Below are positions 14,409 through 29,595 of a stretch of DNA of 64,000 nt, piece by piece. Made by a program: the position numbers and the translations under genes. Within the stretch, counting starts at the first letter, position 1. Each line of letters begins with the position of its first letter. Location of the stretch: positions 558,001 through 622,000 of the forward strand of contig NZ_BMXE01000003.1 of NCBI RefSeq assembly GCF_014651595.1, in the 5' to 3' direction. The notes beneath the pieces were generated by a model. It did no database searches. It saw only the letters and a list, made by a program, of their open reading frames with translations, and was not told where the DNA came from. Source of the stretch: Pseudovibrio japonicus. GTDB taxonomy: Bacteria; Pseudomonadota; Alphaproteobacteria; Rhizobiales; Stappiaceae.

Positions 14409-15254
14409 TTAGGCCGCTGCTCCGGTTTGTGCATCTAACGGGTTGAAAAGGCCAGCTGGTGATGTTGTGAAGATATCGCAGCCTGATGACGTGATGCCGA
14501 TGGAATGCTCAAACTGTGCAGACAAGGATTTGTCTCTTGTTTCAGCGGTCCAACCGTCTTTGAGAACTTTCACATCTGGGCGCCCCAGATTGACCATAGG
14601 CTCGATTGTGAAAATCATTCCCGGCATCAATTTGGTGCCGGCGCCTTTCTGGCCGTAGTGCAGAATATTCGGCATGTCGTGGAACAGTTTGCCAACGCCG
14701 TGGCCGCAGAAGTCACGGACCACCGAGCAGCGCTCTGATTCCACGTACTCCTGAATGGCATGGCCGATGTCGCCTGTGGTGTTGCCCGGCTTGGCAACTT
14801 CCAGAGCGCGCATCAGGGATTCATGGGTGACTTCGATCAGGCGTTTGGCTGCAGGCTTGAGCTTGCCAACCGGATACATGCGGGAGCTATCGCCGTGCCA
14901 GCCGTCAACGATGTAGGTGACGTCGATGTTGACGATGTCGCCTTCTTTCAGCTTCTTCTTGGGATCTGGGATACCGTGACAGATAACGCGGTTGATGGAG
15001 GTACAGCAGGACTTGGTGTAGCCACGATAGTTCAGCGTTGCCGGAACACCGCCGCGCTCCTTGCCAAACTGGAAGACAAAGTCATCAATTTCCTGCGTTG
15101 TGACGCCCGGTTGCACCAGTGGCACAAGTGCGTCGAGGCACTCGGCAGTCATCTGGCTTGCTTTGCGCATACCTTCAAAATCTTCCTGGCTGTAGATCTT
15201 GATCTGGCCAGTGTTTTTCAAGGGCGCTTTGTCAGCGTCTACGTACTCAATCAT
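14409..15254 (-). CDS. map: Type I methionine aminopeptidase
   Basis: 281 residues. The enzyme removes the initiator Met from nascent proteins. The pita-bread fold metal ligands are visible: Asp in NIDVTYIVDGWHGDSSRMY (two Asp), His in HGVGKLFHDMPN, Glu in FTIEPM, and the C-terminal SAQFEHSI Glu. An extension of about 20 residues precedes the catalytic domain (GQIKIYSQEDFEGMRKAS). It is first of the map-radC pair. It is essential in most bacteria unless a second copy exists. Confidence 0.95.
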   Translation of the reverse strand: MIEYVDADKAPLKNTGQIKIYSQEDFEGMRKASQMTAECLDALVPLVQPGVTTQEIDDFVFQFGKERGGVPATLNYRGYTKSCCTSINRVICHGIPDPKKKLKEGDIVNIDVTYIVDGWHGDSSRMYPVGKLKPAAKRLIEVTHESLMRALEVAKPGNTTGDIGHAIQEYVESERCSVVRDFCGHGVGKLFHDMPNILHYGQKGAGTKLMPGMIFTIEPMVNLGRPDVKVLKDGWTAETRDKSLSAQFEHSIGITSSGCDIFTTSPAGLFNPLDAQTGAAA

Positions 15255-15632: not shown

Positions 15633-15717
15633 GCGGTCGTGGTGGAATTGGTATACACAGCAGACTTAAAATCTGCCGCCCTTGGGCTTGCGGGTTCGAG
15701 TCCCGCCGTCCGCACCA
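15633..15717 (+). tRNA. tRNA-Leu (anticodon UAA)
   Basis: 85-nt class II tRNA with encoded CCA. The anticodon stem GCAGA/TCTGC encloses CTTAAAA, giving anticodon TAA. The T arm is GCGGG-TTCGAGT-CCCGC. The variable arm follows the anticodon stem (CGCCCTTGGGCTT). The acceptor strands GCGGTCG and CGTCCGC pair except at position 5, a U-U mismatch. The remaining six pairs are standard. It reads UUA codons. Confidence 0.93.
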
Positions 15718-15810: not shown

Positions 15811-16725
15811 TTAAGCTGTGTCTCCGACCTCTTTCCTGTGTTTGAGCTGGCAGTGCTCGCTCAGGAAATCCAGGAGTACGCGGACGCGCCGTGGCAGGTG
15901 TTTGCTGCCCGGATAAAGGGCATGCATACCGAAGGGCTCCTGCTTAAGATCATTCAGGACCGTTACCAGCTTCCCGCTGGATATGTAGTCACTGGCGAAG
16001 AAACTTGGGAGCCGGGCCACCCCCTTTCCGGCAGCTGCGGCGGCTAGCATGAACTCGGAGTTATTCGTGTTCATGTGGGATGACAGTGAAACTGAGAACT
16101 CCTTGTTTTTGGGTCCGATAAAATTCCATTTGAAACGCTTGAGAGGGCCGTATTGGATCAGCTTATGGTTCTTAAGGTCTTCTGCGGTGTTAAGTGGGGG
16201 GGCTGACTTCAGGTAGTCTGGGCTTGCATAGAAAAGGTGGGTTACGTCGGCGAGCTTTCGGGAGATCAGGGAGCTGTCCTTTAGCTGAGAAATCCTGATC
16301 GCTAAATCGTAATTCTCTTCAATCAGATCGACGAGGCGATCCGTGAAGTCTACGGTTAGATTAATGTTCGGGTACTCATCCGAAAACTTCAGCAAAACCG
16401 GGCTTAAATAGCTTAAGCCGAACTGCATCGGTATGGATATGCGTATCTGGCCATGCTCGTCGTGTTTTTGCGCCGACAAGTCTGCGAAAATGTCATCTAC
16501 ATCCACCATCACCTGTTGTGTGCGCTCGTAGAGAAGGCGACCTGCCTCGGTGATTTGCCACTGCCTCGTAGTTCGTTGGATCAACGCTGTCCCGAGCTGA
16601 TCTTCCAGCAGGCTCAATCTGCGGCTTACCGCAGATTTCGCTATTCCCATATGGTCTGCTGCTTTGCTGATGCTCTCCTGCTCAACAATAAGCGCGAACA
16701 TTCTGAAGTCTTCTAGTTGCCCCAT
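15811..16725 (-). CDS. LysR family transcriptional regulator
   Basis: 304 residues from the ATG at 16725, which has GGAG five nt upstream; the longer frame begins with a poor TTG. The N-terminal winged helix-turn-helix (MGQLEDFRMFALIVEQESISKAADHMGIAKSAVSRRLSLLEDQLG) belongs to the CrgA/AaeR-like LysR branch, and the rest is the periplasmic-binding-like effector domain. It is transcribed divergently from the metallo-beta-lactamase-fold gene, with about 100 nt between the starts, so that gene is the likely target. A perfect ATACGCGTAT palindrome lies between them. Confidence 0.92.
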   Translation of the reverse strand: MGQLEDFRMFALIVEQESISKAADHMGIAKSAVSRRLSLLEDQLGTALIQRTTRQWQITEAGRLLYERTQQVMVDVDDIFADLSAQKHDEHGQIRISIPMQFGLSYLSPVLLKFSDEYPNINLTVDFTDRLVDLIEENYDLAIRISQLKDSSLISRKLADVTHLFYASPDYLKSAPPLNTAEDLKNHKLIQYGPLKRFKWNFIGPKNKEFSVSLSSHMNTNNSEFMLAAAAAGKGVARLPSFFASDYISSGKLVTVLNDLKQEPFGMHALYPGSKHLPRRVRVLLDFLSEHCQLKHRKEVGDTA

Positions 16726-16781
16726 GTGTTCTCCAAATTTGAACTCTGAATCCAATTTTTTATGTTTGTTCTATCAATAGC

Positions 16782-16791
16782 ATACGCGTAT
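16782..16791. promoter_or_regulatory. Candidate operator in the LysR / MBL intergenic region
   Basis: ATACGCGTAT is a perfect 10-bp palindrome 37-46 nt before the MBL start and about 57 nt before the LysR start. Divergent LysR promoters normally carry such a dyad. The assignment is by position only. Confidence 0.4.
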
Positions 16792-16827
16792 CACCTCACC
16801 AGTAAAAACGCTGATAAGGGCTAGGAT

Positions 16828-17787
16828 ATGAAAAACTTGATTATGGCCGCCGTTCTTGGCCTAAGTGCCGCTGGTGTGGCGCAAGCACAAGAACCCATCT
16901 GGGATGGCAACAAAGTCGTTCTTGAGTCACAAAAACTCGCAGATGGCGTTTATGCTGTGATCCCGACTGGTGCTGATGAAATGTCGGTTGAGGGCCTCCC
17001 GATTGCAACCACATCAGGCTTCGTTATTGGTGACAATGGTGTGCTTGTTATCGACTCCATGCTGAATGAGCGACTGAATACGCAGTTGTTTGATCTCATC
17101 GCCGCAGAAACCGATAAGCCGGTCAAGTATCTGGTCAATACAAGCTTTCATGGTGACCACTCCTACGGCAACTACTACGTGCCCGATGAAATTGATATCA
17201 TTCAGCACGAAACAACAGCCGATTACATCGACAATCATTTTGTCGCCGACACGGAATTCATGATCCAGAACTTTGGTGAAGGTCGCGGCATTGAGGAAAT
17301 CAAGCCTGTGTCTGCTGAAATTCTGGTCGGCAAAGGCGGAAGTATCTCGATTGATCTGGGCGACAAGGTCGTAAAGGTCGAAGACTTTGGTTTTGCGCAA
17401 ACCGGCGGCGATCTGTTCGTCTCTGTCCCGGACGACAAAGTGCTCTGGACCGGTAACCCGATTATTGCTCGTGCCCCTGCGGTGCCATGGCTCCTGGACG
17501 GCCACCTGCTGGAAACACTTGCAACGCTTGAAGCCGTTTATGAGGAGTTTGATGCGGATACCACGGTCGTTCCCGGTCACGGTCCAACAACTGACATGGC
17601 TGCAGTGAAATGGAACATTGATTACCTGACGGCTGTACGCAACGGCGTTCGAGACGCTTTGGCAGAAGGTTTGACACTGGAAGAAACCGTAGAAAAGGTC
17701 AGTCTTCCAGAGTTTAAAGGTTATGCAATTTGGGATTGGGTGCACCCAAGCCTTAATGTCCCTGCTGCCTATAATGACCTGAAATAG
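16828..17787 (+). CDS. Exported metallo-beta-lactamase-fold protein with altered metal site
   Basis: 319 residues with a clear Sec signal peptide (cleavage after AQA, about residue 20). The body has MBL-fold landmarks, but the ligands differ from the consensus: HxHxDH reads S106-F-H108-G-D110-H111, the second His position (GxAHTxGD) is Gln191 in FAQTGGD, and the bridging Asp is Asn210 in LWTGN. His251 in VVPGHGP remains. Three of the usual ligands are thus replaced, so a standard di-zinc hydrolase is doubtful; a mono-metal or non-hydrolytic role is possible. The adjacent divergent LysR gene probably regulates it. A 13-bp terminator follows. Confidence 0.83.
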   Translation: MKNLIMAAVLGLSAAGVAQAQEPIWDGNKVVLESQKLADGVYAVIPTGADEMSVEGLPIATTSGFVIGDNGVLVIDSMLNERLNTQLFDLIAAETDKPVKYLVNTSFHGDHSYGNYYVPDEIDIIQHETTADYIDNHFVADTEFMIQNFGEGRGIEEIKPVSAEILVGKGGSISIDLGDKVVKVEDFGFAQTGGDLFVSVPDDKVLWTGNPIIARAPAVPWLLDGHLLETLATLEAVYEEFDADTTVVPGHGPTTDMAAVKWNIDYLTAVRNGVRDALAEGLTLEETVEKVSLPEFKGYAIWDWVHPSLNVPAAYNDLK

Positions 17788-17795
17788 AGCACCCC

Positions 17796-17826
17796 AAAAA
17801 GGCCAGATAGAACATCTGGCCTTTTT
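17796..17826 (+). terminator. Terminator after the MBL-fold gene
   Basis: A perfect 13-bp stem, AAAAAGGCCAGAT / ATCTGGCCTTTTT, with a 5-nt loop and a built-in T run. The A run on the other side makes it potentially bidirectional. Confidence 0.93.
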
Positions 17827-17916
17827 GTCAGAAGTTCATGGATCTTCGTGAACTACGTAAATATACTGTATAGTCTCTAATGCCGACAAATCCATCAGAT
17901 GTAATTGGAAAGAAGT

Positions 17917-19467
17917 ATGGCCCAATCCCCAATTATTGCAGCTAAACATCCTCAGAAAGTCACTCTAGAAGAAGGGAAAACGTACTTTTGGTGCGCCTGT
18001 GGGAGGTCAAAGAACCAGCCTTTCTGTGATGGATCCCATAAAACGACCGGCTTAAACCCGCTTGAGTATAAAGCGAAGGAGAGTGGGGAAGTCTTTTTCT
18101 GTCAGTGTAAGTCTACAGGCAACGCGCCGCTTTGTGACGGGACACACACACGGCTTGGCGACCTGAAGGTGGGCGATGACATTCCGGCAAAAGAGCAGCA
18201 AGATACCATAGAAGCTGTGCCAACCCCTGAGGAACCAACGGTCGCGCGTATTCACGCACTGGCGCGTGATGGATTGTCTAAAGTGGGCCATCATGGTGAA
18301 ATCGGCGCTATGGGAGTGCCACGCTCTCAGCTGCCGCATTGGGATGACATTCAAGTTCTGCCAGCGCAAATGGCACGTAAACCACTGCTGGATGAGGTGC
18401 CGGTCTCAACTGAAGTGGTTATCGGACCGAAAGCCGAGCGGCCCCTGAAACTTAATATCCCGCTCTTTGTCTCTGACATGAGCTTTGGCGCGCTTTCCAG
18501 AGAGGCAAAGGTTTCATTGGCAAGGGGTGCGGAGCAGGCCGGTACTGGCATTTGCTCGGGCGAAGGCGGCATGTTGCCTGAAGAGCACGACGAGAACAGT
18601 CGTTATTTCTATGAGCTGGCATCTGCACAGTTTGGATGGGCACCCGAGAAAGTAAAATATGTTCAGGCGTTTCATTTTAAAGGTGGGCAAGGTGCCAAAA
18701 CAGGCACCGGAGGACACTTACCTGGATACAAAGTTACTGAGGAGATTGCTGCTGTAAGGCACCAGAAGCCTGGAACAGATAGTATTTCGCCTGCAACCTT
18801 CGATAAGCTCATTACGCCAGCCGATTTTGCCAAGTTTGCTGATATGGTGCGTGAGCTATCAGGCGGTGTTCCAATTGGGTTTAAGCTATCAGCAAATCAC
18901 ATTGAAGACGATATAGATTTTGCGCTGGAAGCCGGTGCGGATTACATTATTCTTGATGGCCGCGGCGGTGGTACTGGGGCAGCGCCTTTGCTCTTCAGAG
19001 ATCATATTAGCGTGCCCACTATCCCAGCACTTGCCCGTGCGCGCCGACATCTTGATAATCGCTGCGGCAAAGACGTAACGCTGGTTATCACTGGCGGGCT
19101 GCGCGTGGCTGAGGACTTCGTAAAGGCAATGGCTCTTGGGGCTGATGCTATTGCCATATCGAACTCAGCAATACAAGCAGTCGGCTGTGTCGCTGCACGT
19201 ATGTGTCATACAGATAACTGCCCGACTGGAATAACAACACAGAAGCCTGAGTTGCGCCAACGGTTGAATGTACAAAAGAGTGCTGACCAACTGGAACGCT
19301 TCTTTGGCTCCAGTGTGGATCTGATGAAAATATTGGCAAGGGCCTGTGGCCATGACAGCCTCTCACAAATGAGGCTTGAAGATCTAACCACGTGGAAGAG
19401 AGAGATCTCAGATTTGAGCGGTATTCGTTATGCCGGCGTAAATCCGTTGCCGGTAGGACAACGGTGA
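17917..19467 (+). CDS. Fusion of two CDGSH iron-sulfur domains with a glutamate synthase FMN domain
   Basis: 516 residues from the ATG at 17917, with GGAAAG just upstream. Residues 20-42 and 56-78 each have the CDGSH pattern of a 3-Cys-1-His [2Fe-2S] cluster: C26, C28, C37, H41 and C62, C64, C73, H77. The rest is the FMN/3Fe-4S part of the glutamate synthase large subunit (FKLSANHIEDDIDFAL, DGRGGGTGAAP, and CHTDNCPTGI in the cluster region). The glutaminase domain is absent, so it cannot take ammonia from Gln on its own. A role as an electron-transferring FMN oxidoreductase is inference. No gltD-like gene adjoins it. Confidence 0.9.
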   Translation: MAQSPIIAAKHPQKVTLEEGKTYFWCACGRSKNQPFCDGSHKTTGLNPLEYKAKESGEVFFCQCKSTGNAPLCDGTHTRLGDLKVGDDIPAKEQQDTIEAVPTPEEPTVARIHALARDGLSKVGHHGEIGAMGVPRSQLPHWDDIQVLPAQMARKPLLDEVPVSTEVVIGPKAERPLKLNIPLFVSDMSFGALSREAKVSLARGAEQAGTGICSGEGGMLPEEHDENSRYFYELASAQFGWAPEKVKYVQAFHFKGGQGAKTGTGGHLPGYKVTEEIAAVRHQKPGTDSISPATFDKLITPADFAKFADMVRELSGGVPIGFKLSANHIEDDIDFALEAGADYIILDGRGGGTGAAPLLFRDHISVPTIPALARARRHLDNRCGKDVTLVITGGLRVAEDFVKAMALGADAIAISNSAIQAVGCVAARMCHTDNCPTGITTQKPELRQRLNVQKSADQLERFFGSSVDLMKILARACGHDSLSQMRLEDLTTWKREISDLSGIRYAGVNPLPVGQR

Positions 19468-19543: not shown

Positions 19544-19608
19544 GCCGGATATTCAAAATGGGGGCGGCGTGCACGATCTTGCGGAGTCGAGACACGTCAC
19601 CTACACCA
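19544..19608 (+). pseudogene. Degenerate tRNA-Leu-like 3' half
   Basis: Compared without gaps to the tRNA-Leu at 15633-15717, the stretch 19579-19620 matches 15688-15729 at about 31 of 42 positions, covering the T arm, the acceptor strand, the CCA and 10 nt beyond. Just upstream, GCCGGATATTCAAAAT looks like the anticodon arm of tRNA-Leu(CAA) with a small insertion. The 5' half is not recognisable and the T loop is GTCGAGA instead of TTCGAGT, so it cannot be functional. It is probably an old tRNA copy or attachment-site duplicate. Confidence 0.45.
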
Positions 19609-19627
19609 AACTTTCTTCTCCAGAAAC

Positions 19628-20371
19628 TCAGATCGAAAACAGGTACTGACCTTGTCTTGCCGAGACTGTTGGTGGTTTGCGGTGGTGTTCGAAGAGGTCG
19701 TAGCCTTGCTTGAGGTTGAGCCAGAAGTCCTGCCAGTTTGAGTCAGCGTGCTTGCTAAGATTTTCCTGTGTCATTTCGAAGGGGAAGATGTGAACCGGGA
19801 CGTTGTCTTGTCCGTTCTGTAGGGCCGCTTCGACGAGCAGGTAGATTTCCTCGACATTGTGGTTCGTCATGGCGTAGCAGCCTACGGAGAGGCAATTGCC
19901 GTGGACCATCAGGTAAGAGCCGGTGCGTCCGAGTGATTGATCGAAGGCGTTCGGAAAGCCGAGGTTGAAGGATAAATGGTAGTTGCTGTTGGGGTTCAGC
20001 TGTTTTGCGGAGACATTGTAAAAGCCCTCAGGAGACTGGCCGTCCCCTTCTTTGAGCTTCGGTCCGAGATCGCCAGAGTACTTGCAGATCTCCCAGTACT
20101 TGTAGGGCTGATAGGTGTCGCCGGACTTGACCCATGCCTCTAGCCGGCTTTCTTCTTTAAAGATGCGCAGGTAGACCGGGCTTCCTAATTCCATTCCTTT
20201 GAAGGTCAGGTCTGCGCGCAGGGCTGGCAAGCGCTCTTCCTTCACCTTTGCCAGATCAGCAGTGCCGGGCAGGTCATAGGGCAGGAGAAGATAGGTGGCG
20301 GAGACTGCCAGCGTTACGAGAAAAGCCGGAGCGAGGGCCCAAAGGAGCGGGCGTGAAATGGTTTTTGCCAT
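19628..20371 (-). CDS. L,D-transpeptidase family protein (YafK type)
   Basis: 247 residues. One membrane segment near the N-terminus (about 10-30) anchors it, with the catalytic domain in the periplasm. The YkuD catalytic motif is HGNCLSVGCYAMTN (158-170) with His158 and Cys165; the AMTN ending and the WEICKYSGDLGPKLKEGDGQSPEGFY block are typical of the YafK subgroup. Such enzymes act on peptidoglycan stem peptides or on lipoprotein crosslinks; which one here is not known. It stands alone, convergent with the CDGSH-GltS gene and ending 20 nt from the tRNA relic. Confidence 0.9.
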   Translation of the reverse strand: MAKTISRPLLWALAPAFLVTLAVSATYLLLPYDLPGTADLAKVKEERLPALRADLTFKGMELGSPVYLRIFKEESRLEAWVKSGDTYQPYKYWEICKYSGDLGPKLKEGDGQSPEGFYNVSAKQLNPNSNYHLSFNLGFPNAFDQSLGRTGSYLMVHGNCLSVGCYAMTNHNVEEIYLLVEAALQNGQDNVPVHIFPFEMTQENLSKHADSNWQDFWLNLKQGYDLFEHHRKPPTVSARQGQYLFSI

Positions 20372-26051: not shown

Positions 26052-26464
26052 CATCCTGTCGCGGTAGAATGACTTATCGGTAGTATTGTCGCAGCACTGT
26101 GGGAATGTGCTAGCCAAGTGGTTTTGCGGGCTAAAATTGGCTGTGCAGTCGCCAAGTAGGCCATGCTATTGCGTTGAGCGCTGCACTCTGCTTTTGCACT
26201 TTGCTGGACTGAACTGGGTTCAATTAAAGAAAAAACTTGGCTGTGTGATACTTTTGGCGTAGATATGCGCACCATTCGGCCAGACCTTTTTACGGGTTCG
26301 GCTCATAGTTTCAGATTTTCACTTCCCAGTAACCTCGAAAATCATCAGACCGATTTGTTAGGCCGGCTTGCTGAGATGCTTAACCGAGTTTCTGTAGGAT
26401 TTGAGATTAAAACTTGTTGGTGCATTCGCCTTGGGGTGAAGCCCATCTTGAGATGAGAGATATT

Positions 26465-27907
26465 ATGGCGCTGGTGGGTCCCGTATTACGGGTGCTTGGA
26501 TACTTTATGGTTGGTCTGGCCATTTTGATGCTGGCGCCTGCATTTGTGGACATTTACTTTAGCAATCCTGACTGGATTGCGTTTGCGCTTTCCTCCTTGT
26601 TTGTTGGTCTGTTCGGCCTGCTGCTTGCTGTTTCAACGGCCAACTATGAAGTCACGCACTTAACCATCCGTCAGGCCTTTTTGCTGACTACGGCGTCATG
26701 GCTTGTGATGCCGATTTGTGGTGCTCTGCCGTTTCTCAGCCTTGGTATCGGTTTTGAGAATGCGTTTTTTGAGAGTGTGTCGGGCTTTACCACAACAGGC
26801 TCTACTGTTCTGATTGGTCTGGATGGTATGCCGCCGGGACTGTTGTTCTGGCGCTCATTGACCCAGTGGGTTGGCGGAGTGGGCATTATTGTTATGGCCA
26901 TGCTGCTCATGCCGCTGCTGCGTATTGGCGGTATGCAGCTGTTCCGGACCGAGAGTTCGGACCGGGGTGAGAAGATTGTTGCGCGGGCAACTGATCTGAC
27001 ACGCCTGATCAGCGGCGTTTACATCATGCTGACGCTGACTTGTGCGGTGCTTTATGTCTTTTCCGGCATGACGCCTTTTGATGCGGTGAACCATGCGATG
27101 ACTACTCTGTCATCAGGCGGTTTTTCCACCCACGATGCGTCCTTTGCCCATTTTGAGAACACGGCCGCCGAAGGGATTGCGATTGTCTTCATGATTGCCT
27201 CAGGGTTGCCGTTCGTGGTTCTGATCAAGTCTTTGACGAAGAATCCAATGGCGCTGTTTCAGGATCCGCAAGCACGCGCGTTTCTTTATTTGCTCGTCAT
27301 CCTGTCGTCTCTGACGGCGCTCTATCTTGGTATCGAGAATAACTTCACGTTCACACGCGCTGTTGTTGAGGCGATGTTTGTGGTGGTGTCCATCATCACG
27401 ACGACCGGTTACGGCTTGGGCGATTATACAGCGTGGGGTCCACCGATGATGGGCTTTTTCTTGATGCTGACCTTTATCGGTGGCTGTACTGGGTCAACCA
27501 GCGGCGGCATCAAGATCTTTCGGTTTATCGTCTTCTTTGGCACGGTCCGGGCGTATATGAACAAGATGATCCGGCCGGACCAGGTGGTTCCAGTACGATA
27601 CGGTGAGACGAACATTACGCCTGATCTTGCGTTCTCGGTTCTTGCTTTCCTCGTGGTTTATATGGCGACAGTGGGTCTGATCACTGTTCTTTTGGGGGGG
27701 CTTGGGCTGGATCTGATCACCGCGATGAGTGCGGCGACCACAGCGGTTTCGAATGTGGGGCCGGGTCTTGGGGATGTGATTGGGCCTGTCGGAAACTTCT
27801 CCGACATCCCAAGCAGCGCGAAGATTGTGCTTGCTGGGGCAATGCTGCTCGGACGGTTGGAACTGTTCACCGTGCTGGTGTTGTTTAACCCAGGATTTTG
27901 GCGGTAA
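26465..27907 (+). CDS. trkH: TrkH family potassium uptake protein, copy 1
   Basis: 480 residues from the ATG at 26465, which has GAGAG just upstream and aligns with the start of copy 2. It is a polytopic K+ channel subunit of the Trk/Ktr type. The four pore loops with their filter glycines are visible: SGFTTTGSTVL, TLSSGGFSTHD, TTTGYGLGDY and AVSNVGPGLG. TrkH is energised and gated by cytoplasmic TrkA, which is not in the window. It is followed after 236 nt by a closely similar paralogue. Confidence 0.94.
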   Translation: MALVGPVLRVLGYFMVGLAILMLAPAFVDIYFSNPDWIAFALSSLFVGLFGLLLAVSTANYEVTHLTIRQAFLLTTASWLVMPICGALPFLSLGIGFENAFFESVSGFTTTGSTVLIGLDGMPPGLLFWRSLTQWVGGVGIIVMAMLLMPLLRIGGMQLFRTESSDRGEKIVARATDLTRLISGVYIMLTLTCAVLYVFSGMTPFDAVNHAMTTLSSGGFSTHDASFAHFENTAAEGIAIVFMIASGLPFVVLIKSLTKNPMALFQDPQARAFLYLLVILSSLTALYLGIENNFTFTRAVVEAMFVVVSIITTTGYGLGDYTAWGPPMMGFFLMLTFIGGCTGSTSGGIKIFRFIVFFGTVRAYMNKMIRPDQVVPVRYGETNITPDLAFSVLAFLVVYMATVGLITVLLGGLGLDLITAMSAATTAVSNVGPGLGDVIGPVGNFSDIPSSAKIVLAGAMLLGRLELFTVLVLFNPGFWR

Positions 27908-28143: not shown

Positions 28144-29595
28144 ATGTTGGTTTCAATACGACCGGTTTTAAGTGTGCTTGGGTACCTTTATGTCGGCCTT
28201 GCTGCTGCTATGCTCATCCCGGCCCTTGTGGATGTTGTGTCGCGTAACGCTGACTGGCAAGCCTTTATCATTTCAGCGCTCATTACCGGTCTTGTTGGCA
28301 TGCTGTTCATCGTCGCCATGGGTGGTGCGCTACGTGACGGGTTGGATACACGCCAGACTTTCATCCTGACAACACTGTGCTGGGTAACACTGCCTGCCTT
28401 CGGTGCGCTGCCGTTTTTGTGGCTTGGTATTGCGTATGTGGATGCGGCGTTCGAGGCTGTGTCCGGGTTTACCACCACTGGTTCGACTGTACTGACAGGG
28501 CTTGACTCGCTGCCGCCGGGCTTGCTGGTCTGGCGCTCCTTGATGCAGTGGATGGGCGGTGTTGGTATTGTCGTTATGGCGATTGTGCTTTTACCGTTCC
28601 TGCGCATTGGCGGAATGCAGTTGTTTCAGACAGAGAGCTCTGACCAAAGCGAAAAGATTGTCAGCCGTTCTGTAGAGTTGATCCGGTTGATTGGCCTGAC
28701 TTATTTGCTGCTGACCAGTATTTGCATTGTGCTCTTCTGGTTCTCCGGGATGACTATGTTTGACGCGGTCAACCACGGAATGACCACGATCGCAACAGGT
28801 GGCTATTCCACTCATGATAACTCCTTTGGTTATTTTACAAACCCGGTGACCGGGTGGATTGCCGTGGTTTTCATGATTGTCGGGGCGCTGCCGTTTGTGT
28901 TGATCATTCAGTCCTTGCGCGGTCAACCGATGAGGCTGTGGCTGGATCCGCAGGTGCGGGCGTTTTTGTGGCTGGTTGGACTGATTTCTCTTGCTCTGAC
29001 AATCTATCTTGGAACCTCCGGGAATGCTGATAGTTTTGGCAGTGCGCTTTTGCAGTCTGCGTTCAACGTGACTTCTGTGATCACCGGTACCGGCTATGCC
29101 ATGGGGGATTACACAGCCTGGGGTGCGCCGGTGATTGGTCTGGCGTTCCTTTTGAAGTTTGTGGGCGGGTGTACCGGGTCGACAACGGGCGGCATCAAGA
29201 TCTTCCGCTTTCTCGTCTTCTTTGGCACTGTGATCGCGCATATGCGCCGTATGGTACGCCCGAACCGGGTGATCACGGTGAGCTACGGTAATACGCGCCT
29301 TACGCCGGAACTGACATTTTCTGTTCTCGCGTTCCTTGTGGTCTATATTGGTACCGTTGGTATTCTCACGCTGATCCTGTCACTGTTCCATCTGGATCTG
29401 GTGACCGCTGTTTCTGCTGCTGCCACGTCCGTTGGCAATGTTGGACCGGGCCTTGGCTCCGTGATCGGGCCGTCCGGCACCTTTGCGGCGCTGCCTGATC
29501 CTGTGAAATGGATTTTGTGTGCAGCCATGTTGCTGGGACGTCTGGAGCTGTTTACAGTGCTGATCCTGCTGGACCCTGATTTCTGGTCCAAATAA
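28144..29595 (+). CDS. trkH: TrkH family potassium uptake protein, copy 2
   Basis: 483 residues, colinear with copy 1 from MLVSIRPVLSVLGY to the final FTVLILLDPDFW, so the two arose by tandem duplication. The pore loops are SGFTTTGSTVL, TIATGGYSTHD, TGTGYAMGDY and SVGNVGPGLG. The second and third loops differ from copy 1, which may change ion selectivity or regulation. sfsA follows after 24 nt and is probably co-transcribed. Confidence 0.94.
   Translation: MLVSIRPVLSVLGYLYVGLAAAMLIPALVDVVSRNADWQAFIISALITGLVGMLFIVAMGGALRDGLDTRQTFILTTLCWVTLPAFGALPFLWLGIAYVDAAFEAVSGFTTTGSTVLTGLDSLPPGLLVWRSLMQWMGGVGIVVMAIVLLPFLRIGGMQLFQTESSDQSEKIVSRSVELIRLIGLTYLLLTSICIVLFWFSGMTMFDAVNHGMTTIATGGYSTHDNSFGYFTNPVTGWIAVVFMIVGALPFVLIIQSLRGQPMRLWLDPQVRAFLWLVGLISLALTIYLGTSGNADSFGSALLQSAFNVTSVITGTGYAMGDYTAWGAPVIGLAFLLKFVGGCTGSTTGGIKIFRFLVFFGTVIAHMRRMVRPNRVITVSYGNTRLTPELTFSVLAFLVVYIGTVGILTLILSLFHLDLVTAVSAAATSVGNVGPGLGSVIGPSGTFAALPDPVKWILCAAMLLGRLELFTVLILLDPDFWSK

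Follow-up and report, generated by a model that had tools for sequence, protein, structure and literature searches.

A very probable one-zinc member of the chlorothalonil hydrolytic dehalogenase family encoded beside tRNA-Leu in Pseudovibrio japonicus

Genes and features of the locus

The window, i.e., the whole 64,000-nucleotide stretch of Pseudovibrio japonicus DNA that was analysed, carries a tRNA-Leu gene followed by a LysR-type regulator, a divergently transcribed gene for a metallo-beta-lactamase (MBL) fold protein, here called chd, and a gene for a protein that joins two CDGSH stretches to a glutamate-synthase domain (CDGSH/GltS), with a decayed copy of the tRNA 3' end beyond them (Table 1). 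An earlier, sequence-only reading had described chd as an intact frame with a signal peptide, its own divergent LysR gene and three replaced metal ligands. The intact frame was borne out, the LysR gene lies upstream in the opposite direction, and residues 1-20 were likewise read by eye as a Sec-type export signal, with cleavage between A-Q-A and Q. The Pfam model Lactamase_B covers the protein only in part, from residue 60 to 128.

Table 1. Features of the chd locus, with positions counted from the first letter of the window
Feature	Position	Strand	Remarks
tRNA-Leu (TAA)	15633..15717	+	Left boundary of the inserted segment
LysR-type regulator	15811..16755	-	Divergent from chd; PF03466/PF00126
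LysR/chd intergenic region	16726..16827		
MBL-fold protein assigned to the Chd family, 319 aa	16828..17787	+	Intact open reading frame, ATG start; match to 6UXU
S-F-H-G-D-H, codons 106-111 (S106, H108, D110, H111)	17143..17160	+	D110 and H111 predicted zinc ligands by equivalence to Chd
Codon 191, Gln	17398..17400	+	Canonical residue His
Codon 210, Asn	17455..17457	+	Canonical residue Asp; predicted zinc ligand by equivalence to Chd Asn216
Codon 251, His	17578..17580	+	Predicted zinc ligand by equivalence to Chd His257
Intrinsic-terminator-like stem-loop and T run	17795..17827	+	Directly 3' of chd; -21.1 kcal/mol
CDGSH (two stretches) and glutamate-synthase domain protein	17905..19467	+	
Decayed copy of tRNA-Leu 3' end	19578..19613	+	Right boundary; 26/36 positions identical

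Read by eye, LysR more likely begins with the ATG at 16725 than with the listed TTG, and the intergenic palindrome ATACGCGTAT (16782-16791) could be a candidate operator. Since a strong terminator-like stem separates chd from CDGSH/GltS, an operon of the two is unlikely and chd is probably transcribed alone. Within the genus, the full-length CDGSH/GltS fusion was found only at this locus, the other copies matching from residue 107 on.

Insertion next to tRNA-Leu

The segment bounded by the tRNA-Leu gene and the copy of its 3' end measures 3.9 kb and holds the three genes LysR, chd and CDGSH/GltS. Four of the 15 sister species were inspected, and in them the flanks are colinear, with proteins 76-96% identical and tRNA-Leu between them. 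The flanking genes lie at 14409 and 13559 on the left (read as map and radC) and, to the right, at 19628, 20704, 21683 and 23955; in one of the four the gene at 19628 went undetected. None of the three genes had a match at the site in these species, in a comparison that reported only matches above 40% identity. Three of the four comparisons place the return of similarity to the sister species at 19578, the fourth (L085) at about 19689.

Integration targeted at a tRNA gene usually leaves a repeat of the tRNA 3' end behind. By direct comparison the copy agrees at 22 of 33 positions; the next best in the window reaches 19, and 2 of 5000 local single-base shuffles were as high. No direct repeats of at least 16 nt were found at the ends of the island and no integrase gene was recognised within the three-gene segment. 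We infer that the segment arrived via tRNA-targeted integration and that its carrier element has since decayed. Composition was considered as proof of transfer and is weak: the GC content of the segment is 0.503 against a mean of 0.525 for windows of the same length, 15 of 301 being as low. GC3 is 0.52 in chd, 0.48 in GltS and 0.63 in LysR, with eight other genes at 0.56-0.68. At 26414-27907 and 28144-29595 lie tandem paralogues whose sister-species copies cross-match at about 54-63%; by eye they were read as TrkH-type transporters.

Homologues and the metal site

Strict peptide patterns run against 84,980 species genomes hit 13 loci, of which 11 are family members (44-62% identity). Another three, G660, G817 and G1220, came from whole-genome searches; G994 is the record of L040. 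L044 and L045, which are 27% identical and lack the pattern, were not counted as family, and neither was L076, which is identical to L040. The homologues span at least three phyla, and one is a MAG contig.

The residue numbering of the sequence-only reading (S106, H108, D110, H111, Q191, N210 and H251) is right. It had proposed an alignment of homologues as a check, and Ser, Gln and Asn occupy the three columns in all 14 homologues (44-62% identity) as well as in 6UXU, the solved chlorothalonil hydrolytic dehalogenase (Chd) of Pseudomonas sp. CTN-3; none of the 14 keeps the canonical His/His/Asp. All 16 family rows, i.e., the window protein, the 14 homologues and 6UXU, show the complete pattern S-H-D-H-Q-N-H, and the replacements exceed chance.

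In Chd, according to PMC12784990, the catalytic zinc is held by Asp116, His117, Asn216, His257 and a water, each monomer contributes His143 and Asp146 to a third, dimer-interface zinc, and His114 is drawn in the proposed mechanism (figure legend). An older review calls the centre binuclear, in the portion available to us (PMC6100074); the crystal structure is preferred here. In our alignment with 6UXU the numbering shifts by 6 at these positions, so D110, H111, N210 and H251 are the predicted zinc ligands, and Ser112, Gln197 and His114 of Chd become Ser106, Gln191 and H108. The three replacements are real, but N210 corresponds to a ligand of the Chd family and was not lost. The suggestion that a different metal content is under selection is supported: all 16 rows share the pattern, and the solved member has a mononuclear catalytic zinc.

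For the tree, open-frame residues upstream of the proteins were removed from L078 (100) and L043 (190) before alignment. Of the 17 paralogues included, 11 have the canonical H-H-D-H-H-D-H, three H-H-V-R-H-D-R and three other patterns; these were our selection, and across all compared rows HYHAVR-type relatives are the commonest. In the resulting 33-row tree a single branch (100/100) separates the 16 family rows from the 17 paralogues; Chd falls within the family, beside L078 at 100/99, and the H-H-D-H-H-D-H rows cluster elsewhere at 89/85. The label of L029 is unsure because position 210 is N in the pairwise match and D in the multiple alignment.

Two further groups were seen outside the family. 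L046 (G373), 34% identical, reads N-H-D-H-N-N-H, keeping the Chd zinc-ligand positions with Asn in place of Ser and Gln; it is the nearest outside row and possibly the sister group of the Chd family, but sits on a long branch flagged by the tree tool. The second, with an altered site of its own (H-H-V-R-H-D-R; HYHAVR motif, PGRG for PGHG), comprises L031, L003 and L093 and has the solved relative 8d2z. L031 lies in the window's own genome (C7:110847-111620), and L093 is flanked by a fumarylacetoacetase and an FAD oxidoreductase inside a homogentisate cluster.

Fold and family membership

Among solved sequences 6UXU is the top match (E 6.1e-100, residues 24-318, 50-52% identity), followed by 8d2z at 1.7e-15. 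Structure prediction, also proposed by the sequence-only reading, gave the same answer: an AlphaFold2 model built from the 12-row alignment A1 (pLDDT 81.8, pTM 0.82) had 6UXU as its first Foldseek match (E 2.6e-35, 51% identity, TM 0.86/0.91), and VIA-align 2 of the predicted model with 6UXU gave Z 37.4 and an rmsd of 2.1 over 293 residues, the next match having Z 25.8.

The two best curated NCBIfam profiles were TIGR04559 and TIGR04558, both quinoprotein relay hydrolases (SoxH-related), at 124.9 and 84.8 bits, far under their curated cut-offs of 280 and 300. The quinoprotein relay zinc metallohydrolases have the MBL fold in common with the window protein, but L094, which is so annotated, has the canonical H-H-D-H-H-D-H site. 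That canonical dinuclear site, consisting of HxHxDH, a second-site His, a bridging Asp and a last His, is absent from the window protein, which has S, Q and N at three of the positions.

The gene product almost certainly belongs to the Chd family and is very probably a mononuclear zinc hydrolase. Judged by its sequence it is not a degenerate MBL, and the apparent losses of the sequence-only reading are the normal one-zinc site of the Chd family. It is a new member of a known rare family with one solved enzyme, Chd, with which it shares the Asp/His/Asn/His ligands, the predicted fold and the equivalents of His114, Ser112 and Gln197. For annotation this means that seemingly broken MBL motifs can be a different functional metal site.

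Distribution of the family

The Chd family is rare. A search of the window's genus at E 1e-25 found the gene in one genome of 16, namely the window's own; matches were also found in two of 385 genomes of its class (E 1e-30), the window and the outlier L046; and in two of 398 genomes of its phylum (E 1e-50), the window and G660. In the class of G660 it occurs in 3 of 369 genomes and in the genus of G660 in 2 of 148 (both E 1e-50). At E 0.001, 54 of 61 relatives' genomes have a match, but outside the window's own gene all of these are at E 1e-22 or weaker and are therefore distant paralogues.

Viral origin and plasmid carriage were both considered and rejected. The viral-contig scan gave 82 pattern matches with no relative among them, and the phage collection a single weak 25% match; the 173 matching plasmid records were all below 60% identity, with the 30 listed at 27-32%.

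Neighbourhoods of chd homologues

Neighbours were compared in 14 loci with upstream sequence, the window included; L041 starts inside the gene, and L078 offers about 600 bases downstream only. Ten of the 14 loci have a LysR gene next to chd or separated from it by a single gene, upstream and divergent in eight of them and convergent in two. Enzymes of the quinone/electrophile type lie near chd in five (L033, L035, L036, L042 and L077), the window not being one of them: YqjG-type glutathionyl-hydroquinone reductases in L033, L042 and L077, pirins in L035 (closest to YhhW), L036 and L042, a YqjF relative beside chd in L077, a nitroreductase in L035 and, in L036, an FMN reductase closest, among named solved chains, to chromate and azo reductases. 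In the other nine loci no quinone genes were seen among the annotated or matched neighbours, the flanks being partly annotated. The window locus itself has just LysR and CDGSH/GltS and no quinone-type gene, while its genome holds two pirins and two glutathionyl-hydroquinone reductases, all away from chd.

Neighbour statistics cover 13 of the 15 chd genomes, which together have 26 pirins and 13 glutathionyl-hydroquinone reductases; the genomes of L034 and L041 were left out, and no such neighbour was seen at either locus. A pirin lies within 2 kb of chd in three of the 13 genomes (expected 0.026, P 2e-6) and a glutathionyl-hydroquinone reductase within 4 kb in three, from two genera (expected 0.024; P 2e-4 with one of the two Kangiella dropped). 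Both P values are guides only, the gene families having been chosen once the neighbourhoods had been seen.

Hydroquinone induces yhaK and yhhW of E. coli by way of the regulator YhaJ, which is required for this and also regulates yqjF (PMC5031710). Among known systems this YhaJ hydroquinone/DNT regulon (yqjF, yhaK, yhhW) is one of the closest, as relatives of YhaJ, YqjF, YqjG and YhhW adjoin chd homologues in other genomes. YhaJ shares 37-38% identity with the LysR proteins of L036 and L039 and only 26%, over 174 residues, with the window LysR. No annotated MBL gene was found in the 13-kb K-12 stretch around yhaJ. Taken together, the quinone-response-type neighbours suggest an ancestral role against electrophilic aromatics.

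Relatives of CDGSH/GltS (65-66% identical) occur downstream of chd in both Kangiella loci, immediately after it in L033 and 3.6 kb beyond it in L042. Three chd genomes (G660, G1291 and G1292) also have full-length copies away from the chd loci that were compared, so the link to chd is not exclusive.

Proposed function and alternative explanations

Overall, the best explanation, and one we consider probable, is an exported one-zinc enzyme of the Chd family with a role on electrophilic aromatics, carried on a tRNA-Leu insertion. With Ser106 and Gln191 the usual second metal site would be gone, and a single zinc would be held by D110, H111, N210 and H251. This zinc would activate a water molecule to attack an electron-poor carbon of an aromatic ring and replace its leaving group, as Chd does with chlorothalonil, and H108 (Chd His114) would assist. 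More speculatively, the native job might be the periplasmic clearance of electrophilic aromatics, be they halogenated, nitro- or quinone-like, and the LysR regulator might sense such compounds. An electrophilic aromatic as substrate has, in our estimate, a slightly better than even chance.

Three replaced ligands could mark a pseudo-enzyme, i.e., a once canonical dinuclear MBL now devoid of metals and serving as a ligand binder or chaperone. This is very improbable, because all 16 rows carry the same replacements and these match the functional zinc site of Chd, each of whose four ligands is present. A non-hydrolytic function, as proposed by the sequence-only reading, found no support because the solved member, Chd, is a hydrolytic dehalogenase. 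Subclass B2 metallo-beta-lactamases have one zinc and an Asn in the first motif, and enzymes such as CphA and Sfh-I are likewise one-zinc MBL-fold hydrolases, with a metal-site layout and substrate of their own. A B1/B2 enzyme, for which weak profile matches and the similar fold would speak, is nevertheless scarcely credible: the general models score far under their cut-offs (B1 61.2 vs 200, B2 34.1 vs 240), 6UXU is far closer, and the Asn of the window protein sits at the bridging-Asp position, outside the first motif.

Chd is known from the breakdown of the man-made fungicide chlorothalonil, which it hydrolyses to the 4-hydroxy product; we are not aware of a reported activity for other members of the family, and the literature looked at contained none. 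A dehalogenase recently selected on xenobiotics and spread by fungicide use would fit a gene on an insertion in one of 16 genus genomes, and transfer of chd at contaminated sites was reportedly described by Liang in 2011. This is improbable all the same, as homologues 44-62% identical across at least three phyla make the family old, and the decayed tRNA repeat at the right end means that the insertion is not fresh. The same zinc chemistry might instead serve a non-aromatic native substrate (an ester, lactone or thioester), with dehalogenation by Chd as a side activity. Quinoprotein relay hydrolases as the best curated profiles and the placing of distant relatives next to fumarylacetoacetate hydrolase or homogentisate genes lean that way, but quinone/electrophile enzymes are neighbours in several lineages, and we hold this reading to be rather unlikely.

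Returning to electrophilic aromatics as substrates, we tentatively entertain, at less than even odds, a wider reading in which the Chd family is an old, natural and horizontally moved part of the quinone/electrophilic-aromatic response, chlorothalonil breakdown being a recruited side activity. The response set would then comprise LysR, glutathionyl-hydroquinone reductase, pirin, YqjF and flavin/nitro reductases, to which Chd enzymes would add one-zinc hydrolytic substitution on activated rings in the periplasm. Chd is described as removing halogen from an aromatic ring hydrolytically, with no requirement for CoA or ATP (PMC6100074), and no natural role for the family is named in the open literature searched, as far as its texts were accessible, with most subscription journals missing from it. 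Wild relatives of Chd and their neighbours supply candidates and a testable natural function.

The window protein also differs from Chd, standing on a separate branch of the family tree. The equivalent of the interface-zinc residue Asp146 is Asp in none of the 15 non-Chd rows (Ala140 in the window protein), although the His143 equivalent is kept in 14 of the 15, including the window (H137), and the residue after Ala140, D141, is Asp in all 15; the interface zinc is a trait of CTN-3 Chd and no defining character of the family. The channel ring L28/I29/L307/F310 of Chd becomes P23/I24/I301/W304 in our mapping from the 6UXU alignment, so the substrate range may differ from that of Chd. Activity on chlorothalonil itself is conceivable, if somewhat short of an even prospect.
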